A stretch of 64,000 nt of DNA from Prauserella cavernicola (GCF_016595675.1 NZ_JAENJH010000006.1:62001-126000), one strand, 5' to 3'; shown: positions 34,675-57,264, counted from the stretch's first letter. The notes: generated from the sequence alone by a model not told the origin. Numbers and translations: made by a program.

Positions 34675-34689
34675 CCTATCCTCGAGAGC

Positions 34690-35592: not shown

Positions 35593-36641
35593 CGACTGAC
35601 GCGAGCACCGCCCGGGCGGTCCTGTTCGAGCGGGACGCGGACGGGGAGGTCGCCATCGTGTTCGGAACCGTGGACGTACCGTCCGCCGGCCCGGGAATGC
35701 TGCTGATCAGGCCCGAGTTCGTGGGCATCTGCGGTACCGACATCGAGATCCTCCACGATCGGATGCCGGTGACGTTCGACCTCAACCTGCCTCATTCGAT
35801 GGGACACGAGTGGTCGGGCACGGTCGTGGAGGTCGGTGACGGCGTGGACGCCTTCGCCCCAGGCGATCGGGTGCTCGGGCACGGCGACATGGGCGGCAAC
35901 CACTGGTTCGGCGCGACGGACGACGGTGCGGCAGCCGAGCTCTTCGTCCTGCCCGCGTCGATGTGCTTCCCCGTTCCCGACGGCGTCGACATGGTCACCG
36001 CCGCGATCATCGAGCCGTTTGCGTGTGTCCTGAACGGATTCCAGAAGATCGGCGGGGTCACCGCCGCCGACACGGTGCACGTGTTCGGGCTCGGAGCGAT
36101 CGGCCTCGCCGCCGTCGCACACGCCGCGTACACCGGAGCTCAGGTCGTCGCGCTGGATCCCAGCCCGCTGCGGAGGAGCCGCGCACTGGCACTGGGAGCC
36201 GCGGCGGCCTTCGACCCCGTCGACGACCGATTCTCGGTCGCCATGATCGCTCAGGAGGTGGGCCGCCCCGATGCCGACATCGTGGTCGAGGCCTCGGGCG
36301 CGAGCGGTGCTCAGGCCGCGGCGCTCGCCCACGCCGCACATCAGGGGAGGGTCCTGTTCATGGGGTTGTCCCGGCCCCGCTCGGCGCCGGCGCAACTGTC
36401 GTTGATCGTGGAGCGCGACCTCACCGTGTGCAGCTCCGTGGGTGCTCCGGTCGCCATCTGGGAACCTTCGATCCGATACCTGGCCCGGGCTGGTCTCGAT
36501 CTCGGGTCCCTCGTGACCAGGACGCTTCCCTTCTCGCAGGCCGCCGAAGCGTTCGTGCTCGCGCAGGACTCGGCGGCCGACATCAAAGTGATGCTCCGCC
36601 CGGACACCCCGCCACCGGGTGTCCCCGTCCAGCAGGGCTGA
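35589..36641 (+). CDS. Zinc-type medium-chain dehydrogenase (MDR)
   Basis: 350 residues. Catalytic-metal residues in VGICGTDIEIL (Cys) and MGHEWSG (His-Glu), a second Glu in IIEPFACVLNG, and the Rossmann segment HVFGLGAIGLAAVAHA. The four-Cys structural-zinc lobe is absent: the loop reads GHGDMGGNHWFG. It resembles threonine/sorbitol dehydrogenase-like MDRs that oxidise polyols or secondary alcohols. GTG start, overlapping the XRE stop. A GGACACCC/GGGTGTCC hairpin at 36602-36624 lies at its 3' end. Confidence 0.9.
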   Translation: MTTDASTARAVLFERDADGEVAIVFGTVDVPSAGPGMLLIRPEFVGICGTDIEILHDRMPVTFDLNLPHSMGHEWSGTVVEVGDGVDAFAPGDRVLGHGDMGGNHWFGATDDGAAAELFVLPASMCFPVPDGVDMVTAAIIEPFACVLNGFQKIGGVTAADTVHVFGLGAIGLAAVAHAAYTGAQVVALDPSPLRRSRALALGAAAAFDPVDDRFSVAMIAQEVGRPDADIVVEASGASGAQAAALAHAAHQGRVLFMGLSRPRSAPAQLSLIVERDLTVCSSVGAPVAIWEPSIRYLARAGLDLGSLVTRTLPFSQAAEAFVLAQDSAADIKVMLRPDTPPPGVPVQQG

Positions 36642-36652
36642 GCGGGGCCGGG

Positions 36653-37342
36653 TCAACCGCGACGCTGCTGGCGCCCGACGACGACCCAGATCGCGACGCA
36701 CGGCTCGGCATGGGGGTTGCTGAGCCGGTGCGGGCTGCTCGAGTCGAAGTCGATGCTGTCGCCCGCCGCGAGTGAGACGGTGCGGAAGGAGACCTGCACA
36801 TCGAGGGTGCCGGAGAGAACGTGTCCGTACTCCCAGCCGTTGTGGTGCATCAGGTTGTCCTGACTGCAGGACTCGCTGCCCGGCGGGTAGGTGATCCGCA
36901 GGAACTCCACCTCGGGATCGTCCTCGGCCGTCAGCCGCTCCCAGGTGACGTCGCCGAGCTGGATGCTCGGCCGGTCGGCAGCGCTTTGGTGACCGGGCAG
37001 TGGACGCGCGTCGGTACTCACGTCGGCGAGACTTGCGACCTCGTCCGCCTCCACGACGGGCGACTCCGGTTCGGGGGACGGCCCGTCACCGTCGTTGCCC
37101 GAGGCCATGAGGGAATCCAGTGACAGGTTGAGCTCGGAGGTGATCGCGTAGAGGGTCCCGATCGACGGCGCGGCACGGCCCAGTTCGACCTGAGAGATGA
37201 AGCTCGGTGAGACCCCGACCCGCCGACCCATCTCGCGAATGGAGATCTTCTCCGTGAGCCGCGCCTGCCGGAGGCGCTGGCCCAGAGCCGCACCCGGAGC
37301 TGTCCCGGCCTCCGCGACATCTCCGCTGGCTGCCGAACTCAC
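36653..37342 (-). CDS. XRE-family regulator with C-terminal cupin
   Basis: 229 residues. HTH (ISIREMGRRVGVSPSFISQVELGRAAPSIGTLYAI) and a C-terminal cupin (GWEYGHVLSGTLDVQVSFRTVSLAAGDSIDFDSSSPHRLSNP) joined by an acidic linker. XRE-cupin proteins often regulate catabolic genes with the substrate sensed by the cupin. It is downstream of the hydroxyquinol operon on the same strand, with a 122-base gap carrying dyads, so it may be the operon's regulator with its own promoter. Confidence 0.93.
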   Translation of the reverse strand: MSSAASGDVAEAGTAPGAALGQRLRQARLTEKISIREMGRRVGVSPSFISQVELGRAAPSIGTLYAITSELNLSLDSLMASGNDGDGPSPEPESPVVEADEVASLADVSTDARPLPGHQSAADRPSIQLGDVTWERLTAEDDPEVEFLRITYPPGSESCSQDNLMHHNGWEYGHVLSGTLDVQVSFRTVSLAAGDSIDFDSSSPHRLSNPHAEPCVAIWVVVGRQQRRG

Positions 37343-37375
37343 GTCACACCCTCCCTTTGCGCACTACCGTGCGAC

Positions 37376-37440
37376 TGTACAGCGTGGGTACACCCGGCCG
37401 CCATGCGCGCTGCCGTCCCGATGTGCAGCAGAAGTGCACA
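37376..37440. promoter_or_regulatory. Dyad symmetries upstream of the XRE-cupin gene
   Basis: TGTAC-N7-GTACA (37376-37392) and TGTGCA-N7-TGCACA (37422-37440) lie between the operon end and the XRE-cupin start. Their half-sites are alike (TGTRC/GYACA), so they may be autoregulatory operators. TGCACACTCA (37435-37444) recurs at 42849-42858 in the divergent catabolic promoter; this could be chance. Confidence 0.4.
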
Positions 37441-37464
37441 CTCAGTGGTCGTCGTCGCCGGTGC

Positions 37465-37824
37465 TCAGGGGAGCGGGGTCGGCTGGTAGGCGGTGAGCAG
37501 CCAGCGCCCGTCGTGGTCTGACCAGACCGCGAGAAACGCGTTGCGCATCAGCCGGGTGGTGCCGCGGGCGCGGACCTCGGTCGCCATCTCCCCGACGACG
37601 ATCGCGGCTCCGTCGAGGAGCAGCGGTGGGTCCTCGCGGTGGGTGATCGGCCCGTAGAGCAGTTCACCGGACCGGATCCTGTCCAGGTATGCGGCCTTGT
37701 CGTCGCGGTCGCCGCGGGAGTGGGTGTACACGAGGCGGTCGTCGAGCAGCAGGGCGAGCGCATCCGCGTCCCCGGCGGCCATGGCCGCGTAGCGCTGCTC
37801 CTGCGCCTCGGCCAAGGTGCTCAT
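37465..37824 (-). CDS. NTF2-like/DUF4440 protein, paralogue B
   Basis: 119 residues of the SnoaL/NTF2-like fold. Seen: EQRYAAMAAGDADALALLLDDRLVYTHS, RDDKAAYLDRI, YGPI and GRWLLTAYQPTPLP. It is clearly a paralogue of 42361-42774 (shared YTHS, RD-KA-Y, YGPI, W-L-AYQPT). The fold includes dehydratases, isomerases and hydrolases; no activity is assigned. The start overlaps the thiolase stop (ATGA). It is the last gene of the hydroxyquinol operon. Confidence 0.85.
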   Translation of the reverse strand: MSTLAEAQEQRYAAMAAGDADALALLLDDRLVYTHSRGDRDDKAAYLDRIRSGELLYGPITHREDPPLLLDGAAIVVGEMATEVRARGTTRLMRNAFLAVWSDHDGRWLLTAYQPTPLP

Positions 37825-39029
37825 GCGACCCGCTCGAAGAGCGCGGCGAGCCCCTGACCCCCTGCGATGCACATCGTCTCGAGGCCGTAGCGGGCCTCGC
37901 GGCGCTGCATCTCGCGGGTGAGCGTGGTGAGGATCCGGGCACCGGTGGCGCCGATCGGATGGCCGAGGGAGATGCCGGAGCCGTGCACGTTGAGCCGGTC
38001 GAAGTCCGCATCGCCGAAGCCCCACTCGCGAGTGCAGGCCAGGACCTGCGCGGCGAAGGCCTCGTTGAGCTCGATCAGCCCGACCTCGTCGAGGGTCACG
38101 CCTGCGTTGTTCAGCACCTTGGCGGTCGCCGGGACCGGCGCGGTCCCGAGCATCCGCGGTTCGGTTCCCGAATGACCCCAGCTCACGAGCCGGGCCAACG
38201 GCGTCAGCCCGAGCTCGGCCGCCCGTTCCGGGAAGGTGACCACGCAGACCGCGGCGCCGTCGTTCTGCCCCGACGCGTTGCCGGCGGTGACCGTCGAGTC
38301 GGGATCGCTCATGATCGGCCGCAGCCTGCCGAGCTTCTCGACCGACGTGTCCCTGCGTACGTGCTCGTCTCGGTCGACGACGAACTCGCCCGTGCGGTCC
38401 CGGGCGGAGACGGGGACGACCTCGTCGTCGAACGTCCCCGCCGACCAGGCCGCAGCCGCCCGCTCGTGCGAGCGCACCGCGTACTCGTCCTGCTCGCGGC
38501 GGGAGATCGAGTACTTCTCCCGCATCGCCTCCGCGGTCTCGATCATGCCGCCGGGCAGGGGGAAGTTCTGCCCGCCCGCAGTCAGGCGGCCCCGGGTCAG
38601 TGAGTCGTGCAGCATCAGGCCCGGTCCGTTGCGGATTCCTGCCCGGACCTCCGCCGAGAAGAACGGCGCACGGCTCATCGACTCCGCGCCGCCCGCGATC
38701 ACCACGTCGCTGACGCCGGTCTGGATCTGCATCGCGGCCAGCAGGATCGCCTGCAGACCGGAGCCGCAACGGCGGTCGAGCTGGAACCCGCCGACGCTGG
38801 TGGGCAGGCCGGCGTCGAGCGCGACGACCCGGCCGAGGGCGGGGGCGTCCATCGACGGGTAGCCATGGCCGAGCACGAGCTCGTCCACCGCGTCGGGCGG
38901 GAGCTCGGTGCGCCGCATGAGCTCGCGCACGACGACCGCGCCGAGATCCTGCACCGGCACGTCCCGTAGTGCGCCGCCGAACGCACCGACCGGCGTCCGG
39001 ACGGGCTCGCAGATCACCGCGTCACGCAT
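37821..39029 (-). CDS. pcaF: Acetyl-CoA acyltransferase (3-oxoadipyl-CoA thiolase)
   Basis: 402 residues from the ATG at 39027-39029 with GGAGGAA upstream; the longer frame is not real. Active-site Cys in DRRCGSGLQA, His in NVHGSGISLGHPIGATGAR and the second Cys in CIAGGQG. It would split 3-oxoadipyl-CoA into succinyl-CoA and acetyl-CoA, the last step of hydroxyquinol breakdown. It overlaps the maleylacetate reductase gene by eight bases. Assignment to the 3-oxoadipyl substrate is from context. Confidence 0.9.
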   Translation of the reverse strand: MRDAVICEPVRTPVGAFGGALRDVPVQDLGAVVVRELMRRTELPPDAVDELVLGHGYPSMDAPALGRVVALDAGLPTSVGGFQLDRRCGSGLQAILLAAMQIQTGVSDVVIAGGAESMSRAPFFSAEVRAGIRNGPGLMLHDSLTRGRLTAGGQNFPLPGGMIETAEAMREKYSISRREQDEYAVRSHERAAAAWSAGTFDDEVVPVSARDRTGEFVVDRDEHVRRDTSVEKLGRLRPIMSDPDSTVTAGNASGQNDGAAVCVVTFPERAAELGLTPLARLVSWGHSGTEPRMLGTAPVPATAKVLNNAGVTLDEVGLIELNEAFAAQVLACTREWGFGDADFDRLNVHGSGISLGHPIGATGARILTTLTREMQRREARYGLETMCIAGGQGLAALFERVA

Positions 39030-40077
39030 GGGGTTCCTCCCGGGGTGGGCGTCCGTCGTAGGCCGCGTCGAGAAGTGCGGTGAGCGCGGCGCGATCGACC
39101 TGACGGGGATTGCTGTAGGGCGCGTCGACGGCCTGGTCGACGACACCGGCGAGGTCCTCGCGGCGGGCGCCCAGCGCGCTGAGCGAGCTGGGGGCCCCGA
39201 GGGTGCGGAGGCGGTCCCACAGCGGCTCGCAGCCGAGGGCACGCGCGACCGCGTCCGCCGCTGCGGGCGCCGCCGGTGCGTTGAACGCCAGCACGTGCGG
39301 CAGCATCACGGTGTGGGTCTCGGAATGGGGCAGGTCCAGGGTGCCGCCCAGGACGTGGCAGAGCTTGTGGTGCAGGCCCATCGTGGTCTGGCCAAGGCAT
39401 GCGCCCGCCAGCCAGGCGGCGTACAGGGCGTCCGAACGGCCGTCGCCGGGGTCGGCCACGACCCGGGGGAGCGCCGCGGCCATCGCGCGCACGCTCTCCT
39501 CGGCCATCAGCGACACGATCGGCGAGGCGTCCGGGGCGTACAGCGCCTCGACAGCGTGCGCGATCGCGTTGACCCCGCTGGTCACGCTCATCGGCACCGG
39601 CAGGGAGAGCGTGAGCTCCGGGTCGTAGACCACGCCGCGCGGCAGCACGACGGGGTTCTTGCCGGTCTTCTTGATCCCGTTCTCGGTCAGCCCCCAGACC
39701 GGGGTCATCTCAGAGCCGGCGTAGGTGGTCGGCACGGCCACGATCGGCAGTCCGGAACGCAGGGCGATGATCTTGCCCAGGCCGACGGTCGAGCCACCAC
39801 CGACGGCCACACACCCGTCCGCACCGCGCGCGGCGGCGACCTTCACGGCCCGGTCCGCCACCTCGACGGGCACGTGCATGCGGGCCTCGGCGTGCACGCC
39901 GGCCGCGCGGTCGCCGAGCAGGCCGGCGACCCGTTCGGCGAGCTCTCGCTGCTCGGGCGTGCTCAGCACCAGCACCCGTCGGAGTTCCATGTGGTCGAGT
40001 TCGTCGGCCAGCGCGGCCAGCCGCCCGGCGCCGAACGCGACTCGCATCGGCGGGGCCGAGTAGACGAAGTCCCTCAT
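39022..40077 (-). CDS. Maleylacetate reductase
   Basis: 351 residues, iron-containing alcohol dehydrogenase family. Seen: cofactor motif AVGGGSTVGLGK, PTTYAGSEMTPVWGLTE and metal-site His in NAIAHAVEAL, GLHHKLCHVLGG and HTVMLPHVL. Maleylacetate reductases carry these features and lack the longer GGGSxxDxAK form. It reduces maleylacetate to 3-oxoadipate with NADH. The start overlaps the dioxygenase stop (ATGA). Confidence 0.92.
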   Translation of the reverse strand: MRDFVYSAPPMRVAFGAGRLAALADELDHMELRRVLVLSTPEQRELAERVAGLLGDRAAGVHAEARMHVPVEVADRAVKVAAARGADGCVAVGGGSTVGLGKIIALRSGLPIVAVPTTYAGSEMTPVWGLTENGIKKTGKNPVVLPRGVVYDPELTLSLPVPMSVTSGVNAIAHAVEALYAPDASPIVSLMAEESVRAMAAALPRVVADPGDGRSDALYAAWLAGACLGQTTMGLHHKLCHVLGGTLDLPHSETHTVMLPHVLAFNAPAAPAAADAVARALGCEPLWDRLRTLGAPSSLSALGARREDLAGVVDQAVDAPYSNPRQVDRAALTALLDAAYDGRPPREEPHA

Positions 40078-40937
40078 TCCGGCGCCAGCACAAGGTCGAA
40101 GCGGGCGTGGTGGAAGGGCGAGGCGACGCCGTACCGCGCGGCCTGCTCGGGGTCGTCGACCAGCTCGAACTCGGTGAGCAGGCTGCTCTTCACCGCGAAC
40201 ACCGCGTCCGAGTCGATCCACTCGCTCCCCGCGACGAAGGCGTGGGTGGTCACCGAGTGGTGCCCCTCGGCCGCGCCGATGAAGTGGATGTGGCCCGGCC
40301 GGTTGGGGTGGCGCGAGGTGGCCTCCAGTAGCTCTCCCACCGGGCCATCGGTCGGGATCGGGTAGAAGGCGGGCTTCACGGTTCGGAACCAATAGCGGCC
40401 GTCCGTGTCCGTGGTGAACAGGCCGCGCCCATTGAGGTCCGGCATCTCGCCCGGTTTCTGGACGTCGTAGAAGCCTTTGTCGTCGGCCTGCCAGACGTCG
40501 ACCGTGGCGCCCGGCAACGGAATGCCCTCGGTGTCGGTGACCCTGCCCTCCACGACACACGGCACGCCGCCGCCGACCAGGTCGACGGTGTCGCCGAGTT
40601 CCCGGGGTGGGCTCTCGACCATGTGGAAGGGCCCGAGCACGGTCGATGGCGTGGAGCCGCTGGAGTTGCGTTCACTCTCCAGCGTCTCGACGAGCATCGT
40701 CACTCCGAACACGTCGGAGAGCAGGATGAACTCCTGACGGGTGTCGTCGCACTTGTGCCCGACCCGGGTGAGGAAGTCGATCACTCTCTCCCACTCCGCC
40801 ATCGTCGGGTCGACCTCGCGGACGAACGCGTGCAGGTGCTGGGTCAGGCTGGTCAGCACCGACCGCAGCCGGGGGTCCTCCGTGCGGGAGAACGCCTCGA
40901 CGACGACGTCGGCGGACTGTTCGGCGGTGAAGTCCAT
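40074..40937 (-). CDS. Hydroxyquinol 1,2-dioxygenase (intradiol)
   Basis: 287 residues from the ATG at 40935-40937. An N-terminal helical dimerisation domain (FTRVGHK region, FVREVDPTMAEWERVIDFLTRVGHKCDDTRQEFILLSDVFG) precedes the intradiol core with Fe(III) Tyr/His residues (GFYDVQ, FYPIPTDGPVGELL, RPGHIHF, HHSVTTHAF). Together with the adjacent maleylacetate reductase this indicates ortho-cleavage of 1,2,4-trihydroxybenzene to maleylacetate. A catechol-type substrate is less likely, since no muconate cycloisomerase is present. Confidence 0.92.
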   Translation of the reverse strand: MDFTAEQSADVVVEAFSRTEDPRLRSVLTSLTQHLHAFVREVDPTMAEWERVIDFLTRVGHKCDDTRQEFILLSDVFGVTMLVETLESERNSSGSTPSTVLGPFHMVESPPRELGDTVDLVGGGVPCVVEGRVTDTEGIPLPGATVDVWQADDKGFYDVQKPGEMPDLNGRGLFTTDTDGRYWFRTVKPAFYPIPTDGPVGELLEATSRHPNRPGHIHFIGAAEGHHSVTTHAFVAGSEWIDSDAVFAVKSSLLTEFELVDDPEQAARYGVASPFHHARFDLVLAPE

Positions 40938-40945
40938 GGGGTCTC

Positions 40946-41581
40946 CTAGATGTCGACGGAAAGGGCGGTGCCGGTGCGCGCGACCACTTCCTCGACCGTG
41001 ACGCCCGGCGCCAGTTCGCGCAGGACGGGCCCGGCCGGGGTGAGGTCGATGACGGCGAGGTCGGTGATCACCCGGTCGACGACGCCGCGGCCGGTCAGCG
41101 GCAGGCTGCACGTGTCGACGAGCTTCGGCGAACCGTCCCGGGCGACGTGCTCCATCAGCACGACGACGCGGCGAGCGCCCGCGACGAGGTCCATGGCGCC
41201 GCCGATGCCTTTGATCAGTTGTCCCGGGACGGCCCAGTTGGCGAGGTCGCCGTCGGCGGAGACCTGCATCGCGCCGAGCAGCGCGACGTCCATCCGGCCG
41301 CCGCGGATCATGGTGAAGCTGGCCGCGGAGTCGAAGAAGGCCGCGCCGCGCTGGACGGTCACCGTCTCCTTGGCCGCGTTGATCAGGTCGGCGTCCACCT
41401 GTGCCTCCAGGGGTGCGGTCCCGACGCCGAGGATCCCGTTCTCGGCGTGCACGACCACCTCGACCCCTTCCGCGAGATGGTCCGGCACGAGGGTCGGGAT
41501 CCCGATGCCCAGGTTCACGTACGTGCCGTCGGCGAGGTCCGCGGCGGCCCGCGCGGCGATCTCGGTCCTGCTCCACGGCAT
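40946..41581 (-). CDS. pcaJ: 3-oxoacid (3-oxoadipate) CoA-transferase, subunit B
   Basis: 211 residues. The catalytic Glu in [20 protein letters not shown] and [21 protein letters not shown] are diagnostic of the beta subunit. It forms a pair with subunit A (41583), one base apart. It would transfer CoA from succinyl-CoA to 3-oxoadipate. An acetoacetate role (ScoB) is possible by sequence, but context points to 3-oxoadipate. Confidence 0.92.
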
Positions 41582-41582
41582 G

Positions 41583-42350
41583 TCAGGTTCCCTCCGGCGC
41601 GCGCACGACGCGCTTTTCGATCTGCTTCTCGCTGGCCTGCTCTGCGGTGAGCGGCACGACCCGGCTCACGAAGATCCCGGGCAGGTGGATCTCGTCGGGG
41701 TCGAGCTCACCGGGCTCGACGAGTTCCTCGACCTCGGCGATGGCGACCCGCGCGGCCATGGCGCACAACGGGTTGAAGTTGCGCGCCGAGGCGTGGAAGA
41801 CCAGGTTCCCGTGCCGGTCGCCGCGGGCGGCCCGCACGAGGCCGAAGTCGGTCGGCAGGGAGGGTTCAAGTACGTGGTCGCGGCCGCCGAAGCTGCGGAC
41901 CTCCTTGGGAGGAGACGCGACCGCCACGGAACCGTCCGCGTGATGACGCCAGACCAGGCCGCCCTCCGCGACGACGGTCCCCGCCCCGGTAGGCGTGAAG
42001 AACGCCGGGATGCCGGCGCCCGCGGCGCGCAGCCGCTCGGCCAGCGTGCCCTGCGGCGTGACCTCCACCTCGACCTCACCGGCCAGGTACTGGCGGGCGA
42101 ACTCCTTGTTGTCCCCGAAGTAGGACGCGACCACCCTGCGGATCCGGCCCTCCGCCAACAGCAGGGACAGCCCCCAGCCATCGGCGCCACAGTTGTTCGA
42201 GGCGATCTCCAGATCGGTGACCGTCCCCGCCATCAGGGCGTCGATCAGCACGACCGGGACACCGCACAGCCCGAATCCACCGACCGCGATCGAACTCCCG
42301 TCGGGAATGTCCGCGACGGCCTCCGACGCAGACCTCACGACCTTGTCCAT
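41583..42350 (-). CDS. pcaI: 3-oxoacid (3-oxoadipate) CoA-transferase, subunit A
   Basis: 255 residues from the ATG at 42348-42350. The CoA-binding [24 protein letters not shown] and [19 protein letters not shown] are typical of the alpha subunit. It overlaps functionally and nearly physically with subunit B. It follows the NTF2-like gene by ten bases. Confidence 0.92.
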
Positions 42351-42360
42351 GGGCTTCCTC

Positions 42361-42774
42361 TCAGCGCGGCGCGGCAACGGGCGGGACGGCGGTGGGCTGG
42401 TATGCGGCGAGCCGCCAGTCGCCGGTGTGCCGGGTCCAGACCGCGAGGCCGACGTTGTGGATGGTCTTCGGCGCACCGTTGATCACGGCGTCGCAGCGGA
42501 ACTCTCCGACGACGAGCACGGTGTCGCCGAGCACGACGACTTCCTGCTCGGTGTAGGCGATCGGGCCGTAGTCGAAGGTGCCGTCGGCGACCATTCCGAC
42601 GTACTCGGCCTTGGTGTCCCGGGAGGCGTTGGAGTGCGTGTAGAGCAAGTCCTCCGACAACAACTCGGCCAGCTCCGGGACGTCAGCCGCGCTCATCGCG
42701 GCGTATCGGCGGCGTTCGAGTCCGCGGATCGCGGTGACGAGCTGTATCTGACGCTGATCACTGGTCGTGCTCAT
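42361..42774 (-). CDS. NTF2-like/DUF4440 protein, paralogue A
   Basis: 137 residues from the ATG at 42772-42774, which has a strong AAAGGAGGGG site; the longer frame is not supported. Seen: ERRRYAAMSAADVPELAELLSEDLLYTHS, RDTKAEYVGMV, YGPI and GDWRLAAYQPTAVP. It is the first gene of the hydroxyquinol operon, and a paralogue (37465) is the last. In this fold a Tyr/His/Asp site can support dehydration; whether it does here is unknown. It is a candidate for ring-forming dehydration. Confidence 0.87.
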   Translation of the reverse strand: MSTTSDQRQIQLVTAIRGLERRRYAAMSAADVPELAELLSEDLLYTHSNASRDTKAEYVGMVADGTFDYGPIAYTEQEVVVLGDTVLVVGEFRCDAVINGAPKTIHNVGLAVWTRHTGDWRLAAYQPTAVPPVAAPR

Positions 42775-42885
42775 GAGCCCCTCCTTTGCGGTCTTTGTGT
42801 CGCGGGCCGGGGACAGCGGCACCCGGACCAGCGCGGGGAAAGTATCACTGCACACTCATCGGCAGCAACCAGTTCCGAAAGTAAT

Positions 42886-42899
42886 AGCAAACGTTTCGT
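42886..42899. promoter_or_regulatory. LacI-like operator and promoter in the divergent region
   Basis: The sequence centred on AAACGTTT (42889-42896) matches the AAnCGnTT core of LacI-family operators. A good -35 element, TTGACA (42910-42915), lies just to its right with CAGAGT 17 bases further as a weak -10, directed at the isomerase-like operon. No LacI gene is adjacent, so the regulator would be encoded outside this region. Confidence 0.4.
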
Positions 42900-43034
42900 G
42901 TTCTCCTTATTGACAAAGGCTGCGGACGCAGTCAGAGTGGCAATCGCTTCGCGGCGCGGTGGCCGAGCCGGTGACGGTCGGCCGGGACTGCCGCCCGAGC
43001 GACTTGATCCCGACGACGTGATGGAGTGGTCACC

Positions 43035-43928
43035 GTGACTGCACGGCCGGGTGCTGAGCAGGTTTCCGAGCAGGTTTCGGGGCACGAGCTGATCGCCGCC
43101 TGCTGGACCACGGCCGGAGCCTGCGATGCGATGGGCCCCGACGACCGGAGTCCGGTGCCGATCCGGGAGCGGGTCGCCGCAGCCGTCGCCGCCGGCTTCG
43201 CGGGCTTCGGGATCGGGTACCTCGACCTGATGGAGGTCGAGCGCACCGTCGGCTTCGCGGCCTTCCGGGCCCTGCTCGACGAGTACGGCGTCCGGTATCT
43301 GGAGTTGGAGGTGCTCGACCAGTTCCACTCCACCGGCGAGACGCGGGCGCGCTCGGACGCCAAGCGGGCCGACCTGCTCCGCGCCGCCGAGTCGCTCGGC
43401 GCGCTGCGGATGAAGAGTATCGGCAGTGTCGCCGGGGGCGAGGTCGACATCGAGCGCGCCGCGGACGACTTCGGCCGGCTGTGCGAGCAGGCCAAGGCGG
43501 CGTCGGGGATGTCCGTCGGGCTCGAGTCCATGCCGTTCACCGACATCCGGACGCCCGACGTCGCGCTCGAGATCGTGAGCCGGGCCGGTCAGGCCAACGG
43601 CGGGATCTTCCTCGACATCTGGCATGTGGCCCGGGCGGGTCTCGACGTGTCGGAGGTGGCGTCGCTCCCCGTCGAGCACATCGCCGGCGTCGAGATCGAC
43701 GACGCGGACGCCGAGGTTCGAGGCACGCTGATCGAGGACACCTTCAACGAGCGGCGCTTTCCCGGTGAGGGTGTCCTCGACGTCCAGGGGTTCGTCGACG
43801 CGGTCGCCAAGACCGGCTACTCCGGACCGTGGGGGGTGGAGATGCTCTCCACCGACTTCCGCGCGATGCCGGTGCGCGATGCCACCCGCCGGGCGTACGA
43901 CACCACGATCCGGTTCCTGGACCGGTGA
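43035..43928 (+). CDS. Sugar-phosphate isomerase/epimerase-like TIM-barrel protein
   Basis: 297 residues, xylose-isomerase-like (AP endonuclease 2) family, the superfamily of IolE (2-keto-myo-inositol dehydratase) and IolI. Metal-site acidic residues appear in GLESMPFTDIRT (Glu), IFLDIWHVARAG (Asp/His), VEIDDADAEV (Asp) and WGVEMLS (Glu). The GTG at 43035 is chosen because GGAG precedes it by eight bases; a GTG at 43026 is possible. It is the first gene of the importer operon. An epimerase, dehydratase or isomerase of a cyclitol or sugar is likely. Confidence 0.88.
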   Translation: MTARPGAEQVSEQVSGHELIAACWTTAGACDAMGPDDRSPVPIRERVAAAVAAGFAGFGIGYLDLMEVERTVGFAAFRALLDEYGVRYLELEVLDQFHSTGETRARSDAKRADLLRAAESLGALRMKSIGSVAGGEVDIERAADDFGRLCEQAKAASGMSVGLESMPFTDIRTPDVALEIVSRAGQANGGIFLDIWHVARAGLDVSEVASLPVEHIAGVEIDDADAEVRGTLIEDTFNERRFPGEGVLDVQGFVDAVAKTGYSGPWGVEMLSTDFRAMPVRDATRRAYDTTIRFLDR

Positions 43929-44011
43929 GCTCGGCCGGGGTAGCGCGCCCGCGTGCGGTCCGCCCGGCCGACACGTTCCGAACCGAGCAGCACGAACCCT
44001 ACGGAGGAATC

Positions 44012-44782
44012 ATGTCGGACGAGCAGCCCAAGAAAAGGATCGCCGTCGTCACCGGTGCCGCGGCCGGGCTCGGACAGGCGATCGCACACCGGCTCGCCGA
44101 GTCCGGGATGGACGTCGTCCTCGCCGATCTCGACACCGCGGACGAGACCGCGGCACTCGTCGACAAGGCCGGCGGACGAGCCCATTCGGTGATCTGCGAC
44201 GTCACCTCCGAGGCCTCGGTCGCAGAACTCGCCACGGCCGCCCAGGATTTCGGTGGTTGCGACGTTCTCGTGAACAACGCGGGCATCTACCCGTTCGTCC
44301 TGTTCGAGGACCTCACCTTCGAGATGTGGCGCCGCATTCTGTCGACAAACCTCGACTCGATGTTCTTGACCTGCAAGGCATTCCTTCCCGGAATGCAGAC
44401 CAACGGGTGGGGGCGAGTGATCAATCTGGCGTCCAACGCGTACATGAACGGTGCCGACCCGATGCTCGCGGGCTATGTGAGCAGCAAGGGCGGCGTGATC
44501 GGGCTGACCCGCGCGTTGGCGAGCGAGTACGGGGCCCACGGCATCACGGTCAACGCCATCGCTCCAGGACTCACTGTCACCGGCACGACCATCGCCGCTG
44601 TGGGTGGCCGACCCGGTGAGGCGGGCGCCGCGAAGTGGGGTGCCATGGCCGCACTGCAGGCCATCAAGCGGACCCCGACCCCGGCCGACGTCGTGGGCGC
44701 GGCCGCGTTCCTCGCCTCCGAGGAGGCCGGTTTCATCACCGCTCAGACCCTCGTCGTCGACGGTGGTCTCGCCCGCGTCTGA
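44012..44782 (+). CDS. SDR-family NAD(P)-dependent oxidoreductase
   Basis: 256 residues from an ATG with GGAGGAA upstream. Cofactor motif TGAAAGLGQAIA, NNAG, active-site Ser in INLASNAY, and YVSSKGG (Tyr-x3-Lys). It resembles 3-oxoacyl-ACP reductase/polyol dehydrogenase types. It is the second gene of the importer operon, so it probably oxidises the imported polyol or its product. Confidence 0.93.
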   Translation: MSDEQPKKRIAVVTGAAAGLGQAIAHRLAESGMDVVLADLDTADETAALVDKAGGRAHSVICDVTSEASVAELATAAQDFGGCDVLVNNAGIYPFVLFEDLTFEMWRRILSTNLDSMFLTCKAFLPGMQTNGWGRVINLASNAYMNGADPMLAGYVSSKGGVIGLTRALASEYGAHGITVNAIAPGLTVTGTTIAAVGGRPGEAGAAKWGAMAALQAIKRTPTPADVVGAAAFLASEEAGFITAQTLVVDGGLARV

Positions 44783-44803
44783 GCGACGGAATGGGAGATC
44801 CAC

Positions 44804-46300
44804 ATGGAAGAGACTCCACGGACGCTGCTCGCGGTGTCCGGCGTGGGCAAACGCTTCGGCGGCGTCCAAGCCCTCGACGACGTGTCGATCGAGTTCCGAG
44901 CCGGTGAGGTCCACGCTCTGCTCGGCGAGAACGGCGCGGGCAAGAGCACCCTGGTCAAGATCATCGCCGGAGTGCTGGAACAGGACACGGGCTCCGTCGA
45001 CTCCGTCGGGGGCGCCACGGGCGACGCGGACGACATAGCGATGGTGTTCCAGGAATGCTCGCTCATCCCGACGCTGTCGGTGCGCGACAATCTGGTCCTC
45101 GCGCTCCACCGCGGCGGCGCCATCCTGCGGCGCTCCACATTGGAGGCTGCGATGAGGTCGGCGTTGTCGCGTGCCGGGCTCGACGGTCTCGACCTCGACG
45201 TGCCGGTGGAGGTGCTGCCGCTCGCGCAGCAGCAGCTCCTGGAGATCGCTCGAGGGCTCGCCGCCGACTCCCGCACCCTCATCCTCGACGAGCCGACGGC
45301 CACACTCTCCGACGTCGAGATCGCGAAGGTCCACGAGGTCGTGCGGTCCCTGCGCGACAGTGGGCACGCCATCGTCTACATCACCCACCGCCTGGCGGAG
45401 GTGTTCGCGCTGTCCGACCGCATCACCGTCATGCGCTCGGGCCGGGTGGTGAGCAGCGGCCGCACCAGCGAGTTCGCCATGGACTCGCTCGTCGCCGACA
45501 TGCTCGGCCCCGAGCACCGGATCCCGGCCCCGGGCGCGGCACCGGTCGGGGGCGGCCCGGCACCGGACGGTCCGCGGCTGATCGTCGAGGGCGCCTCCAT
45601 CGAACACCGCTTGCATGGGGTGTCCTTCGAGGCCCCCGCCGGCGAAGTCACCGCCGTGTTCGGACAGATCGGTTCTGGGGCGGACGACCTCGTGCGGGCA
45701 CTGGCGGGCCTGGTGCCCTTGTCGTCCGGCATCGTCCGCCTCGGCGAGCGCACCTTGACGGGGTTCGACCGTGCCGGCTCGCAACGACACCGGGTCGCGT
45801 ACGTCTCGGCCGACCGCGTCGTCGAAGGGGTGTTCCTCACCGGTGACGTAGTCCGCAACATCAGCTCGGGTGCACTGCGCCGGGTCAGCAGGGGTGGTGT
45901 CATTCGTGCCGCTGCGGAGCGCGTGCTCGCCCGGGACACAGCCACCCGGGTCGCGTTCGACCCGGACCGGATCCATACGCAGATCGGTCAGCTCTCGGGC
46001 GGCAACCAGCAGAAGATCGCCATCGCCCGGGCGCTGGCCACCGAACCGGTCATGCTCGTGCTGAGCGAACCGACCCGAGGCGTCGACATCGGTGCCAGGG
46101 CCGAGATCTACGCGGCCCTGCGTGACCTGGCCGCGACCGGTGTCGTGGTCGTCGTCTACTCGAGCGACATCGTGGAGATCCGTGAGCTGGCCGACCGGGT
46201 CCTGACCTTGTTCCGCGGTTGCCAGGTCGGCGACCACCGCGTCGACGACACAGACGACGCTCGCATCCTGGCCGACATCCTCCACGGAGCCGCCGCATGA
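44804..46300 (+). CDS. Sugar ABC transporter ATP-binding protein (RbsA/XylG type)
   Basis: 498 residues with two ATPase halves. The first has Walker A GENGAGKS (41-48), Walker B LILDEPTATL and a weak signature (LPLAQQQLLEIAR). The second lacks the Walker A Lys (GQIGSGADDL) but keeps LSGGNQQK and LSEPTRGVDIGARAEIY. This asymmetry is normal in the RbsA/MglA family. It is coupled to permease 1 (ATGA overlap). Confidence 0.95.
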   Translation: MEETPRTLLAVSGVGKRFGGVQALDDVSIEFRAGEVHALLGENGAGKSTLVKIIAGVLEQDTGSVDSVGGATGDADDIAMVFQECSLIPTLSVRDNLVLALHRGGAILRRSTLEAAMRSALSRAGLDGLDLDVPVEVLPLAQQQLLEIARGLAADSRTLILDEPTATLSDVEIAKVHEVVRSLRDSGHAIVYITHRLAEVFALSDRITVMRSGRVVSSGRTSEFAMDSLVADMLGPEHRIPAPGAAPVGGGPAPDGPRLIVEGASIEHRLHGVSFEAPAGEVTAVFGQIGSGADDLVRALAGLVPLSSGIVRLGERTLTGFDRAGSQRHRVAYVSADRVVEGVFLTGDVVRNISSGALRRVSRGGVIRAAAERVLARDTATRVAFDPDRIHTQIGQLSGGNQQKIAIARALATEPVMLVLSEPTRGVDIGARAEIYAALRDLAATGVVVVVYSSDIVEIRELADRVLTLFRGCQVGDHRVDDTDDARILADILHGAAA

Positions 46301-47319
46301 CCGCCGAACTGGGCTCGCCACCCACCGCTGACACCCGTACCGCCCCGACACGAACGCCGTCCACGATCTCGCGCCTTCGGCACGCACTCACCGACGGCGC
46401 GGTCATCATCAGGCTGGTCACGGTACTGATCTTCGTGGTCGCCTCGATCGCCGTACCCCAGTTCGCCACCGGCGAGAACTTCCAGACCCTGCTCCAGTCG
46501 GTCGCGCTGATCGGGATCGCCGCGGTCGGGCTGAGCCTGATCACCATCGTCGGTCGGCTGTTCTCGCTGTCGGTGAGCGCCACGATCGCGATCTCCGCGA
46601 TTCTGTTCGCAGCCACCCTGCGGTGGGGTCCATGGACCGCGCTGCTGGTCTCGGCGCTGTTCGGGCTTCTGAGCGGGGCCGTGCAAGGCGTGCTCGTAGG
46701 TCGCTGGCGGACCGACCCCATCGTCACGACGATCGCGTTCGCCGCGATCATGCTCGGGCTCGGTCAGCTGTTCACGGAGGGCCGCAACATCCGTGGTGAC
46801 GGAGACGCCACCGTCTTCGGCAGCACCGTCCTCGGTATTCCCGGACAGGTCTTCGCTTTCCTGCTGGCGACCGTGGTGGCCTGGTGGCTCCACCGCTACA
46901 CGGTCCGGGGCCGGGTCCTCAGCCTGATCGGTCTCAACGAGAAGGCTGCGCTGGTCTCCGGGCTGCGATCCTGGCCGATCGTCGTGCTCGCGTTCGGCGT
47001 CGCCGGACTCTTCGCCGGTGTCGCGGGCGGCCTGCTCGGTGCTCAGAGCGGACAGGGCAATCTCGGGCTGGGGGCGGCCTTCGGGTTCGACGCCATCACC
47101 GCGGTCGTCGTCGGCGGGGTGAGCGTCAAGGGTGGTCGCGGCAGTCCCTTCGACGCCGCCGTCGGAGCCCTGCTGGTCGGTTTGCTGGGCAACGTCCTCA
47201 TCCTGGCGGGCCTCAGCTACGAGACACAGCTCATCGTCAAGGGCGTCCTCGTCCTCGGGGCTGTCGTGCTGGCAGGCGCCACCGCTCTCGACCCGACAAC
47301 CCGCCGAGGTGGCAGATGA
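46297..47319 (+). CDS. Sugar ABC transporter permease 1 (RbsC family)
   Basis: 340 residues, about ten TMs. Seen: LLQSVALIGIAAVGLSLITIVGRLFSLSV in the N-terminal half (the family usually has GGIDLSVG here) and FGFDAITAVVVGGVSVKGGRGSPF near the C-terminus, the typical ALGG-like loop. The ATG at 46297 overlaps the ATPase stop. With permease 2 it makes a heteromeric channel. Confidence 0.94.
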   Translation: MTAELGSPPTADTRTAPTRTPSTISRLRHALTDGAVIIRLVTVLIFVVASIAVPQFATGENFQTLLQSVALIGIAAVGLSLITIVGRLFSLSVSATIAISAILFAATLRWGPWTALLVSALFGLLSGAVQGVLVGRWRTDPIVTTIAFAAIMLGLGQLFTEGRNIRGDGDATVFGSTVLGIPGQVFAFLLATVVAWWLHRYTVRGRVLSLIGLNEKAALVSGLRSWPIVVLAFGVAGLFAGVAGGLLGAQSGQGNLGLGAAFGFDAITAVVVGGVSVKGGRGSPFDAAVGALLVGLLGNVLILAGLSYETQLIVKGVLVLGAVVLAGATALDPTTRRGGR

Positions 47320-48326
47320 TCTCGCTGTACTGGAACTTCCGCGTCCGCCTGGCGTGGGGACTGGTCCTGCTCGCCGTCGTCGCCTTCGCGGTCATGGCAC
47401 CCGGTTTCCTGTCGGTGTCCAACGTCCATGCCCTCGTCCAGAGTTTCGCGGCTCTCGGCGTCTTGGCCGTGGGGTTGAGCCTGACGATGATCGCTGGGGA
47501 GTTCGATCTGTCGATCGCAGGTGTCGTGCCTCTCACCGCGTTGATCACCATCGCGGTGGGCCAGTCGACGTCCCTGGTAGTCGGAGTGGTCCTCGGGCTG
47601 CTCGTCGCGCTCGCATTCGGACTGCTCAACGGATGGTTGACCGCGCGCTTCTCCATTCCGGCCCTCGCGGTGACCGTCGGCACGATGGTGCTGACCACCG
47701 GTCTCGGTCATGCGGTTGCCGGCGGCGAGGTCGTGACCCTCACCGACTTCGGCATCGGCCTGTCCCTGGACGCTCCGGTGGCCGGAATCCTGTCGATCCA
47801 CAGCATCGTCGAGCTCGGCCTGGTCGTCGCCGCGGTGTTCGTGATGGCGCGGACCTGGACCGGGCTGACCATCTACTCAGTCGGAAGCGATCCCGCCCGG
47901 TCCGCGGCCTCGGGCTTGTCGGTGTCCCGCGCCATGGTCACCGTGTTCGTCGCGTCCGCTCTGTTCGCCGGTGTGGCCGGCGCGTTGCAGGGCATCTCGC
48001 TCGCTGCGGCGACCCCGGGCGCCGACCTCGACACCGTCTTGCAGGCCGCGACCGCCGTCATCGTTGGTGGAGTCGCGCTGAGCGGTGGGAAGGGCAAGGT
48101 GCTCGGGGCGATCGCCGGGGCGGCGCTCCTGTCGGTGGTCGGGAACGGACTCAGCCTGATCGGCACCCCGACCGCCGTCGTCCAGCTGGCCAACGCCGCC
48201 ATCCTGCTCGTCGTCGTGGTCACCGACGGCACGCTGACCCGACTGGTGAGACGCGGGGCCGAGAACGCAGCCACCACTCTCGTCCCGGCGCCCGCCGCCA
48301 CTACTCCGCAGGGAGGATCGTCGTGA
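47316..48326 (+). CDS. Sugar ABC transporter permease 2 (RbsC family)
   Basis: 336 residues, about ten TMs. Seen: GVLAVGLSLTMIAGEFDLSIAGVVPLTALI (the GEFDLS motif), IPALAVTVGTMVLTTGLGHAV and TAVIVGGVALSGGKGKVLGAIAGA. It overlaps permease 1 (ATGA) and the binding-protein gene (GTGA). Two different permeases per importer are common in this class. Confidence 0.94.
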   Translation: MISLYWNFRVRLAWGLVLLAVVAFAVMAPGFLSVSNVHALVQSFAALGVLAVGLSLTMIAGEFDLSIAGVVPLTALITIAVGQSTSLVVGVVLGLLVALAFGLLNGWLTARFSIPALAVTVGTMVLTTGLGHAVAGGEVVTLTDFGIGLSLDAPVAGILSIHSIVELGLVVAAVFVMARTWTGLTIYSVGSDPARSAASGLSVSRAMVTVFVASALFAGVAGALQGISLAAATPGADLDTVLQAATAVIVGGVALSGGKGKVLGAIAGAALLSVVGNGLSLIGTPTAVVQLANAAILLVVVVTDGTLTRLVRRGAENAATTLVPAPAATTPQGGSS

Positions 48327-49333
48327 AAACGCTCCGCGGCACCGTCGCCGCACTGATCGGGCTCTTGCTCGTCCTCGTGGCCGGGTGCGGCCCGGCAGCC
48401 GAGCCGACCGCGGTGGGGACGGCGGCCGGCGACGACGTACGCGGCAAGCGCGTTGCGCTCCTCACCGTCGCGCAGAGTTGCGACTACTGCGCCCTGCACA
48501 CCCAGCAGTTCCGGGCGGTCGCGGACGCGGCCGGGCTCGACCTGCAGGTGATCGTCAACGACTTCGACGCCGGCGAGCAGGCCCAGCAGATCAACCAGGT
48601 CATCGTCACCAAGCCGGACGCGGCCGTGGTCTGGCCCGCCGACGCCGCGGCGATCATGCCGTCGTTGGCCCGGCTGCGCGCCGCCGGCATCCCCGTGATC
48701 GTCACCAACGCGTTCCCGCAGAGCGACGACGACTCCTACTGGGCCACCTACACCGGCCCCGACGACGTCGAGAACGGCGCCCAGGCTGCGCGCGCGATGG
48801 TCGAGGGACTGAAGGAGCGCGGCAAGCCGCTCAAGGGCGACGTCGTCGTCCTCATCGGAGTCCCCGGCACCCCGGGAACGATCAACCGGTACGAGGGCTT
48901 CACCCGCGCCCTGGCCCAGCTCGCCCCCGACATCGAGGTCGTCGGGCGCCAGCCAGGGAACTGGGACCAGACGGAAGCCACCAGCGCCGCCGCCACTCTT
49001 TTCACCCAGTTCGGCGGGCCGGACCTGATCGGCATGTACTCCCAGGCCGACAACATGCTCGCCGGAGCCGTCCTCGCCGCACAGCGTGCCGGGATCGACC
49101 CGAAATCGCTGATGTTGGTCGGGCACAACTGCTCGATCGAGGCCTACGACGCGCTCGCGTCCGGTGACCAGTACGCCACCGTCCTGCAGAGCCCCATCGA
49201 CGACGGTGATGCCGCCGCCAAGGCTGTGATCACGCTGCTGCGCGGGCAGCCTCAACCCAAGAACGTCTTCATCGCGAACCCCATCATCACCCGGGACACG
49301 GTGTCGCGGTGCGACGCCGCCGTCGGCAAGTGA
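48323..49333 (+). CDS. Sugar-type ABC transporter substrate-binding lipoprotein
   Basis: 336 residues, GTG start. Signal sequence with lipobox LVAGC (Cys22), then an RbsB-like two-lobe fold: GKRVALLTVAQSCDYC, FDAGEQAQQINQVIVTKPDAAVVWP, GIPVIVTNAFP and DLIGMYSQADNMLAGAVLAAQRAG. A CxxC (CDYC, about 53-56) sits in the first ligand-contact loop, which is unusual for the family. It is expected to bind a polyol or cyclitol and deliver it to the two permeases. Confidence 0.93.
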   Translation: MKTLRGTVAALIGLLLVLVAGCGPAAEPTAVGTAAGDDVRGKRVALLTVAQSCDYCALHTQQFRAVADAAGLDLQVIVNDFDAGEQAQQINQVIVTKPDAAVVWPADAAAIMPSLARLRAAGIPVIVTNAFPQSDDDSYWATYTGPDDVENGAQAARAMVEGLKERGKPLKGDVVVLIGVPGTPGTINRYEGFTRALAQLAPDIEVVGRQPGNWDQTEATSAAATLFTQFGGPDLIGMYSQADNMLAGAVLAAQRAGIDPKSLMLVGHNCSIEAYDALASGDQYATVLQSPIDDGDAAAKAVITLLRGQPQPKNVFIANPIITRDTVSRCDAAVGK

Positions 49334-49346
49334 TCGGAGGAACCCC

Positions 49347-50144
49347 ATGATCGACTGGACCATCCCGCTGCCCGACCAGGTGGTCGTCACCGGCACCGCG
49401 AGCGGTCTCGGCGAGGAGACCGCTCGGCTGCTCCTCTCCGCGGGCGTGCGCGTCTACGGAGTCGACCTCGCCGGCGCGGCCGACGACCTGTGCAAGAACG
49501 AGCTGTTCAGTTCGTTGCCAGGCAGCGTCACCGAGGCCACGACCTGGTCCCGCGTGCTCGACGCGGTGCGCTCCGACGTGACCGCGCCGCGCTCGCTCGG
49601 TTTCGTTGGGGCGGCGGCGGTGCTCGACGTCGGCATCCTCGACGACGAGGACCCGGCGGTCTGGCGCAAGGCATGGGAGGTCAACGTCCTCGGAAACGTG
49701 ATCGCGTTGCAGGCGTTGCTACCACTGCTCGCCACAGCTGAGCACGGCGCGGTCGTGGCCGTGAGCAGCGTCAACGCCTCGTTCGGCGAGCAACAGCTCG
49801 CGGCGTACTCGTCGTCGAAGGCCGCGCTCACCGGGGCGATCCGCACCATCGCGCTCGACTACGCGCGGCGAGGGGTGACGGTGAACGTACTGGCACCCGG
49901 ACCGATGCGGGCAGGGCTGTTCGAACGCCACCTCCAGTCAGCCGTCGACCCCGAGCGCTTCCTCGCCACCCGCGAAGCCCGCCAACCGATCGGTCGCATC
50001 CCGGGCGCCGACGAGGTCGCCCGCGCCGCGGCGTTCCTGTTGTCCCCGGCCGCCTCCGCGGTGTTCGGCACCACCCTGACCGCCGACGGTGGACTGACCG
50101 CCGGCTTCGACTTCCGCACCGGGCTCGAGGGCTCCTCCGCCTGA
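49347..50144 (+). CDS. SDR-family oxidoreductase
   Basis: 265 residues. Cofactor motif TGTASGLGEETA, active-site Ser in AVSSVNASF, YSSSKAAL (Tyr-x3-Lys) and the C-terminal TADGGLTAGF. The usual NNAG reads FVGAAAVLDVG, a divergent form. It is the last gene of the importer operon, 13 bases after the binding-protein gene, and probably a second dehydrogenase step. Confidence 0.92.
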   Translation: MIDWTIPLPDQVVVTGTASGLGEETARLLLSAGVRVYGVDLAGAADDLCKNELFSSLPGSVTEATTWSRVLDAVRSDVTAPRSLGFVGAAAVLDVGILDDEDPAVWRKAWEVNVLGNVIALQALLPLLATAEHGAVVAVSSVNASFGEQQLAAYSSSKAALTGAIRTIALDYARRGVTVNVLAPGPMRAGLFERHLQSAVDPERFLATREARQPIGRIPGADEVARAAAFLLSPAASAVFGTTLTADGGLTAGFDFRTGLEGSSA

Positions 50145-50649: not shown

Positions 50650-50679
50650 TGACCTCGCCTCTCCCCGTGGGTGAGTAAC

Positions 50680-50714: not shown

Positions 50715-50778
50715 CTCTCCAATACTCGTACAGGGAGGCCGACGGCGCCACCCACGGCGACAAGCGAAAGGCACAACG

Positions 50779-57259: not shown

Positions 57260-57264
57260 GGCGC

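Follow-up and report, generated by a model that had tools for sequence, protein, structure and literature searches.

Two divergent operons in a 64,000-nucleotide stretch of the Prauserella cavernicola genome (GCF_016595675.1, NZ_JAENJH010000006.1:62001-126000; hereafter the window, with positions counted from its first letter) appear to encode a single catabolic system, in which a cyclitol would be converted to hydroxyquinol (1,2,4-trihydroxybenzene) by a TIM-barrel protein acting as ring-forming dehydratase. That the two operons are one system, that the ring does not come from the usual monooxygenase and that a cyclitol is the likely feedstock are well supported by comparison of sequences and gene neighbourhoods. 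The specific route, for which we infer the substrate, the TIM-barrel reaction and the role of two NTF2-like proteins, is given a probability of about 0.6. Such a route would follow the quinate pattern of oxidation, dehydration to an aromatic and ring cleavage, in a form that seems not to have been described and that draws on known enzyme families.

The window belongs to a 7.2-Mb genome whose relatives are actinobacterial, and the genes named here are all present as long reading frames with Pfam or NCBIfam matches (Table 1; start codons were chosen among candidate starts). The minus operon encodes, in order of transcription, an NTF2-like protein, subunits A and B of a CoA-transferase, hydroxyquinol 1,2-dioxygenase (HQO), maleylacetate reductase (MAR), a thiolase, a second NTF2-like protein and a helix-turn-helix (HTH)-cupin regulator; it thereby supplies a gene for every step between hydroxyquinol and succinyl-CoA plus acetyl-CoA. 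The plus operon begins with the TIM barrel, followed by short-chain dehydrogenase/reductase (SDR) 1, the ATPase, two permeases and binding lipoprotein of an ATP-binding cassette (ABC) importer, and SDR2. Overlaps of 4-8 bases in six adjacent gene pairs fit operon organisation. An earlier note on this DNA had described both operons, with two NTF2-like proteins beside the dioxygenase, MAR, CoA-transferase A/B and thiolase on one strand and a full sugar-type ABC importer, TIM barrel and two SDRs on the other, and reading frames and family matches agree with that description.

The dioxygenase, in which both N- and C-domains are present, is predicted from its relatives to be a hydroxyquinol-type rather than a catechol-type intradiol enzyme. 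Its closest solved chains are 8r2x (273 bits) and 1tmx (248 bits), catechol enzymes reaching at most 132 bits, and two Tyr and two His residues, presumably the iron site, align with 1tmx. MAR, whose gene overlaps that of HQO by 4 bases, counts the maleylacetate reductases 3w5s and 3hl0 among its solved relatives. The CoA-transferase subunits A (TIGR02429) and B (TIGR02428) score above cut-off and share the operon with the thiolase, which exceeds the cut-off of the NCBIfam acetyl-CoA C-acetyltransferase subfamily and reaches 361 bits against the pcaF equivalog, below its cut-off of 597.

Resorcinol-type hydroxyquinol pathways resemble the window in HQO (62-67% identity) and MAR (60-63%) at nine Streptomyces-like loci. 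At six of these the probes detect a ring hydroxylase, the very gene in which such pathways differ from the window. Three FAD_binding_3-type probes, whose coverage does not extend to two-component monooxygenases, were applied within 5 kb at HQO loci without a TIM homologue (TIM-free) and across the whole stretch at loci where HQO and a TIM homologue occur together (TIM-linked). At least one probe detected a hydroxylase at 24 of 40 TIM-free loci; the 17 TIM-linked stretches gave no match (Fisher p 1.3e-5, relatedness not corrected). The 40 were taken from 55 HQO matches found beyond the window, L094 and L112 being short stretches, and a hydroxylase-like C-terminal fragment seen by eye in L083 was left uncounted. 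The 17 linked loci include the plasmid loci L206 and L207, count L183/L199 once, leave out L181, contain the near-copies L179/L206 and L190/L203, and have a short flank on one side in L145 and L197. The combination of dehydrogenase, TIM barrel, HQO and MAR with no ring hydroxylase by these probes was found in the window and 16 other linked loci. In the Agrobacterium locus, HQO has an LLM-type flavin oxidoreductase about 9 kb away.

Within the window, no flavin monooxygenase was found among the Pfam-scanned genes (24346-36701, 36653-62819, 18051-20843 and 22120-24045; genes at 1639-17959, 20840-21817, 59908-60369 and 62857-63993 lay outside the scan). The earlier note had likewise seen none in either operon, and of the ring hydroxylase in the same regulon that it had envisaged as another source of hydroxyquinol, no FAD_binding_3-type candidate appeared in the 17 linked stretches. 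Supply in trans by the usual (L084-type) hydroxylase was considered for this genome and rejected, as no match was found at E 1e-60; the same search was negative in 6 of 12 other linked genomes tested.

The two modules also recur together elsewhere, contrary to the lack of co-occurrence that the earlier note had named as a refutation. TIM homologues were sought in 298 genomes of the order, by profile searches of 394, 17, 96 and 301 genomes, by a protein search of 121 and by a single-sequence scan of genome contigs that gave five loci. The searches yielded 72 distinct matches (those from the 17 genomes being repeats), of which 48, in 46 loci, were read with their surroundings, 23 mostly weaker ones (19 from the search of the order, 4 from that of the 301 genomes) were left unread and one more lies on a 4.6-kb contig (L146). 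At 16 of these 46 whole-genome loci (15 genomes, the window's included and G845 and G917 being near-copies), HQO and the TIM gene are no more than 15 kb apart, a count biased upward by up to two because L201 and L203 were fetched once HQO was known to lie near TIM; MAR adjoins or belongs to the cluster each time. Of 394 genomes of the class, just 48 encode HQO. A TIM match occurs in 51 plasmid records, and in at least 19 of them HQO is no further away than about 3 kb, a lower bound since 60 of 407 HQO plasmid records were listed; many of them are near-identical rhizobial strains.

Gene order varies among these loci. It is TIM-SDR-HQO-MAR-NTF2-SDR-ABC-SDR on a Rhodococcus opacus plasmid, MAR-HQO-SDR-SDR-TIM with pcaF and CoA-transferase on an Agrobacterium tumefaciens plasmid, MAR-HQO-SDR-SDR-TIM-TIM-SDR-ABC in Rhizobium ruizarguesonis and HQO-TIM-iolG-Gfo-ABC-Dabb-MAR in Azospirillum. 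A linked Shinella locus has HQO near TIM with no MAR annotated in the stretch, and two Sphingobium TIM loci have no HQO annotated. TIM and HQO are adjacent or separated by one gene in L201, L145, L211 and L206. The linked module is spread over two phyla, in soil and plant-associated bacteria.

Three architectures can be distinguished by their dehydrogenases. SDR-type clusters with an ABC importer are L178, L179, L182, L202/L180, L206, L210 and L212, and those with no importer adjacent are L034 and L207; L202 and L180 provide the fullest match to the window, with CoA-transferase, thiolase, zinc-dependent alcohol dehydrogenase (zinc-ADH), NTF2, SDR2 and four importer genes. IolG-type clusters (L035, L145, L147) are ordered Gfo/Idh-TIM-HQO-MAR-Gfo-Gfo; the first Gfo of L035 scores 405 bits against an inositol/chiro-inositol dehydrogenase model (cut-off 540, not reached) and the last 305 bits against the iolG model (below its cut-off of 355). 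In iol2-type clusters, HQO and MAR are divergent from an OxiC-like gene, TIM and further Gfo/Idh genes, the transporter belonging to the major facilitator superfamily (MFS) in L188, L190, L197 and L203 and being an ABC importer in L183/L199. The OxiC-like Gfo/Idh protein (L035:14665-15747) is kept in L145, L147, L183, L188, L190, L197, L198, L203 and L211, identity with the L035 copy being 61-90% among the actinobacterial proteins and 38% for that of Azospirillum. Because OxiC of Corynebacterium glutamicum is reported to be inactive as an inositol dehydrogenase, the OxiC-like protein may have another role in these clusters, for example in a second dehydration. A separate arrangement is seen at L201:7718-12115, where a divergent TIM (36%) directly precedes HQO-MAR and is itself preceded by what, judged by eye, is a larger SnoaL/NTF2-like protein, and where another TIM follows; L214:1-2792 holds a similar TIM-HQO-NTF2-IclR group. 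These groups may represent a sister pathway.

The TIM barrel is the common candidate dehydratase across the linked clusters. Its AlphaFold model (predicted local distance difference test score, pLDDT, 95.1) has Lmo2234, 5hmq and IolI as top Foldseek matches, and phmmer returns the same three; IolE structures appear only at ranks 47-48 of the Foldseek list, and the IolE model TIGR04379 is absent from the NCBIfam matches at 1e-3. The best NCBIfam model is the 3-dehydroshikimate dehydratase QuiC, at 75 bits against an equivalog cut-off of 1200 that belongs to a fused 635-residue protein. All 47 sequences compared share E167, D197, H200, R243 and E272, and at least 90% have E223. In the order E167/D197/H200/E223/R243/E272, they align with E136/D167/H170/Q193/R212/E241 of the fusion protein 5hmq, which we take to be QuiC, these residues presumably forming its metal site and including the catalytic His; the kind of ligand changes at one position (E223 versus Q193). 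QuiC aromatises a keto-cyclitol acid, 3-dehydroshikimate, by dehydration, so the proposed aromatisation has precedent in the TIM fold. The records read label the family "sugar phosphate isomerase/epimerase", "TIM barrel protein" or "hypothetical protein". At a little over even odds, these proteins are an as yet unnamed family of IolI/QuiC-like cyclitol aromatases, which would turn keto-cyclitols into benzenetriols without oxygen or a monooxygenase and feed aerobic ring cleavage in Actinomycetota and plant-associated Alphaproteobacteria.

The NTF2-like proteins are distributed more narrowly. The first has a fold model with pLDDT 92.7 and Foldseek matches to NTF2/ketosteroid isomerase-like folds, the second a Y-x-H-S...D motif that is invariant among homologues, and conserved polar residues are Y45, H47, D53, Y58, Y69 and N107. 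Their genes were seen solely in SDR-type actinobacterial clusters, plus divergent ones in L201 and L214. A part as essential dehydratases was rejected, no homologue being found by probe in L035 and the iol2-type clusters and none being annotated in L207 and L210-L212. The earlier note had proposed both the NTF2-like proteins and an IolE-like protein as dehydratases; of these, the TIM barrel is the candidate that the linked clusters share, and the NTF2-like proteins are candidate helpers. In the alphaproteobacterial loci L207, L210, L211 and L212, small YciI, Dabb or tautomerase-family proteins occupy the place of NTF2 and are possible stand-ins for one helper step.

Other components of the window also have counterparts near TIM. 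Homologues of the zinc-ADH encoded beside the minus operon lie inside the L182 and L202 clusters (58% identity) and near TIM in L150/L151 (36-37%); because the 58% homologues sit in corresponding clusters, the enzyme is probably a member of the system. SDR2 homologues occur in L182 (65%), L202 (64%) and Rhizobium L210 (54%), with no close homologue seen in L034, L178 and L179. The ABC ATPase is matched at 58-59% in L182 and L202, and the lipoprotein, whose nearest solved chains (4rsm, 5hko, 4rs3) score about 90 bits, at 57% in L182 and 53% in L202. HTH-cupin regulator homologues are found near TIM in L178, L179, L180, L181, L150 and L151.

Mapped onto an HQO tree of 59 rows, the TIM-linked label requires 5 changes, each imposed by a well-supported branch; the truncated L183 row was left out, the last 300 residues were kept for proteins longer than 400, and the long rows L207, L201 and L098 are unsure. 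A TIM tree of 46 rows calls for 7 changes of the HQO label, of which at least 5 are forced. TIM and HQO partners thus seem to have been exchanged several times, a pattern that argues for a functional bond and not shared descent.

The identity of the substrate was approached by a simple enumeration of the products of two beta-eliminations. A deoxy-inosose with its CH2 next to the ketone gives 1,2,4-trihydroxybenzene only, the other two deoxy-inososes give pyrogallol, and plain inososes give tetrahydroxybenzenes; conversion of a protected inosose to 1,2,3,5-tetrahydroxybenzene is described in passages of a review (PMC11467972). On these products, a deoxy-inositol best fits hydroxyquinol, and a deoxy-inositol (quercitol) or 2-deoxy-inosose is the best-fitting substrate. 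The CUT2 ABC importer would take up the cyclitol, and an SDR or ADH would oxidise one hydroxyl to a ketone. The metal-binding, QuiC/IolE-like TIM barrel would then eliminate water beside the ketone, and a second dehydration and tautomerisation by the same enzyme, perhaps with NTF2-like help, would yield aromatic hydroxyquinol. HQO would open the ring, MAR would reduce maleylacetate to 3-oxoadipate, and CoA-transferase and thiolase would complete the conversion to succinyl-CoA and acetyl-CoA. Import, oxidation and dehydration of a cyclic polyol to the ring had been suggested in the earlier note; co-location of the modules and the missing usual hydroxylase now speak for that course, with substrate and reaction still put forward as proposals.

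The quinate/shikimate pathway, which uses a 3-dehydroshikimate dehydratase of the QuiC/AsbF type, offers a close chemical parallel, since a cyclic polyol acid is likewise oxidised to a ketone and aromatised by a metal-dependent TIM barrel before intradiol cleavage leads to 3-oxoadipate. The window TIM differs from QuiC in sequence (24% identity) and in having no fused dioxygenase-like domain, and the proposed product, hydroxyquinol, lacks the carboxyl and is opened by HQO. Classical inositol catabolism (IolG, IolE, IolD) also places an IolE-superfamily barrel after a dehydrogenase, and iol-type neighbours occur at several TIM loci. In contrast to that pathway, the ring is proposed to aromatise instead of being hydrolysed, and the window genome has no iolD match at E 1e-100; iolD is also missing from 5 of 14 other linked genomes, which leaves it present in 9 of 15.

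Among the closest described systems is the iol2 cluster of C. glutamicum, given in passages of PMC9603128 and PMC7764795 as iolT2-rhcM2-rhcD2 / ihtR / oxiC-cg3390-oxiD-oxiE. As in the window, dehydrogenases, a putative isomerase, a transporter and dioxygenase/MAR genes stand together; unlike the window, the dehydrogenases are Gfo/Idh proteins and the transporter an MFS protein, in place of SDRs and an ABC importer. Inositol dehydrogenase activity has been proven for OxiD and OxiE (PMC9603128, in part). IhtR, the repressor of iolT2-rhcM2D2, is released by 1,2,4-trihydroxybenzene (0.05 mM) and hardly by inositol or resorcinol (PMC7764795, in part). The cg3390 product is termed a "putative sugar phosphate isomerase" in these reports, whose passages on the cluster draw no link between cg3390 and hydroxyquinol. 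L197 has the iol2 layout with a TIM 36% identical to that of the window; no NTF2 homologue was found there. In a literature search that reached a minority of subscription journals, no paper was found that links a cyclitol to aromatic ring cleavage or that joins "inositol dehydrogenase" with "maleylacetate reductase".

Several observations weigh against the proposed route. Of the TIM-free HQO loci, 16 of 40 likewise have no hydroxylase probe match within 5 kb, so absence alone is not diagnostic, and the window genome encodes seven other FAD_binding_3 proteins on other contigs. The window HQO groups with mostly hydroxylase-linked Streptomyces-like HQOs. No HQO was found inside 15 kb at 30 of the 46 TIM loci (for most of these, the reading covered about 10 kb on each side, and HQO was also sought genome-wide in 24 genomes), and the idea that the whole TIM family is hydroxyquinol-specific was rejected on that count. 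L148, L184, L185 and L186 hold iolD/iolE/iolB-type and iolG-like neighbours, which suggests that part of the TIM family serves other cyclitol routes. The iol2-type TIM operon of L198 has no HQO or MAR adjacent, and an HQO-MAR-hydroxylase locus (L205) lies elsewhere in the same genome. Conversely, HQO-MAR-NTF2-SDR and an HTH-cupin regulator occur at L204:9517-12787 with no TIM in the 20-kb stretch and no hydroxylase by probe, and the Streptomyces-like L082/L119 have HQO-MAR amid a sugar ABC importer, Gfo/Idh, PhyH, LacI and iolB with no TIM found. The window operons contain no IolG-type gene, their dehydrogenases being SDRs and ADHs, OxiD and OxiE are proven on inositols and not on deoxy-inositols, and IhtR hardly responds to inositol.

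The last points bear on a reading in which inositol is oxidised to inosose and doubly dehydrated to a tetrahydroxybenzene that the cluster's dioxygenase and reductase accept, hydroxyquinol not being an intermediate. IolG-like genes in linked clusters are in keeping with it, as are the activity of OxiD and OxiE on inositols (PMC9603128, in part) and the formation of tetrahydroxybenzenes by two eliminations from inosose, as in the reviewed chemistry (PMC11467972, in part), which also counts against hydroxyquinol as product. It is considered unlikely, given that the closest solved relatives of HQO are hydroxyquinol dioxygenases, that MAR, CoA-transferase and thiolase suit 3-oxoadipate, that IhtR answers to 1,2,4-trihydroxybenzene (PMC7764795, in part) and that a path from inositol to hydroxyquinol needs an added reduction. 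Distinctly unlikely is an arrangement in which the TIM barrel would serve the ordinary inositol route as an IolI-like inosose isomerase and HQO/MAR would be an unrelated aromatic module travelling with it, both nutrients occurring around plants. Such an arrangement would account for IolI among the top Foldseek matches, for TIM homologues that adjoin iol genes and for the L198 TIM, and it fits poorly with the missing iolD in the window genome and 5 of 14 others, with the close TIM-HQO spacing in L201, L145, L211 and L206, and with a TIM-HQO pairing that changed several times on the HQO tree.

If a ring hydroxylase encoded elsewhere made hydroxyquinol from a phenol, the plus operon could be an unrelated sugar operon. 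Of 13 linked genomes tested, 6 do encode a usual-type hydroxylase at another place, and 16 of the 40 TIM-free HQO loci likewise lack one nearby; this is still very improbable in view of the co-location of the modules in two phyla, the 17 linked stretches negative by probe and the window genome, which has none of the usual type at E 1e-60 (two-component monooxygenases were not searched genome-wide). C-glycoside deglycosylation systems employ Gfo/Idh dehydrogenases, AP_endonuc_2 TIM barrels and sugar-type importers together with a second small deglycosidase subunit. Parts of the first three kinds occur among the linked clusters, and L214 has a GMC oxidoreductase close to a TIM gene, so an imported aryl glycoside might be split via a 3-keto sugar by the dehydrogenases and TIM, leaving HQO/MAR to degrade the freed hydroxyquinol. 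This is the least probable of the alternatives: all window operon genes match other families, leaving no candidate second subunit, no deglycosidase title is among the 50 Foldseek matches listed for TIM, the operons have no sugar-catabolic genes, and the C. glutamicum cluster, whose build is similar, has enzymes that act on inositols (PMC9603128, in part).

If the cyclitol-to-hydroxyquinol route is correct, cyclitols, which are common plant and soil compounds, enter the aromatic ring-cleavage network directly, by a hydroxylase-free enzymatic route from polyols to benzenetriols. It would also explain the presence of inositol-type dehydrogenases beside hydroxyquinol genes in C. glutamicum and the repressor response to 1,2,4-trihydroxybenzene, and would provide a function for cg3390 and the dioxygenase/MAR genes of iol2, as well as for a poorly annotated TIM-barrel family.

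Table 1. Features of the two divergent operons and the adjoining dehydrogenase gene (window positions).
Feature	Position	Strand	Basis and remarks
Zinc-dependent alcohol dehydrogenase, probable extra polyol dehydrogenase	35589..36641	+	Pfam ADH_N/ADH_zinc_N; outside the region covered by the earlier note
HTH-cupin transcriptional regulator	36653..37342	-	Pfam HTH_3 + Cupin_2
NTF2-like (DUF4440) no. 2, candidate helper dehydratase/tautomerase	37465..37824	-	Pfam DUF4440; overlaps thiolase stop
Thiolase (putative 3-oxoadipyl-CoA thiolase)	37821..39029	-	Pfam Thiolase_N/C
Maleylacetate reductase (MAR)	39022..40077	-	Fe-ADH family; relatives 3w5s, 3hl0
Hydroxyquinol 1,2-dioxygenase (HQO, intradiol)	40074..40937	-	Pfam Dioxygenase_N/C; relatives 8r2x, 1tmx, 3n9t
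3-Oxoacid CoA-transferase subunit B	40946..41581	-	TIGR02428 above cut-off
3-Oxoacid CoA-transferase subunit A	41583..42350	-	TIGR02429 above cut-off
NTF2-like (DUF4440) no. 1, candidate helper dehydratase/tautomerase	42361..42774	-	Pfam DUF4440/SnoaL
Divergent promoter region of the two operons	42775..43025	.	Between both start codons
TIM barrel (AP_endonuc_2), proposed cyclic-ketone dehydratase/aromatase	43026..43928	+	Pfam; NCBIfam QuiC weak match; Foldseek
SDR dehydrogenase 1	44012..44782	+	Pfam adh_short_C2; in-frame GTG start at 43925 possible
ABC importer ATPase, CUT2 (RbsA) type	44804..46300	+	Pfam ABC_tran x2
ABC permease 1	46297..47319	+	BPD_transp_2
ABC permease 2	47316..48326	+	BPD_transp_2
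Sugar/polyol-binding lipoprotein, CUT2 type	48323..49333	+	Peripla_BP_4
SDR dehydrogenase 2	49347..50144	+	Pfam

A promoter/operator search of the divergent promoter region detected no sigma-70-like site, and the sole inverted repeat found was weak; megablast of the region against plasmids gave only short matches covering one or two genes. Just past the plus operon (50206-51669) lie an HxlR regulator and an aldo/keto reductase, for which no homologues were found by probe in the TIM/HQO-linked clusters examined. Further along, on the minus strand at 55867-62819, genes for radical SAM/SPASM, TENA/THI-4/PQQC-family, pyrroloquinoline quinone (PQQ)-type beta-propeller dehydrogenase and peroxidase-family proteins are suggestive of a PQQ-related cluster.

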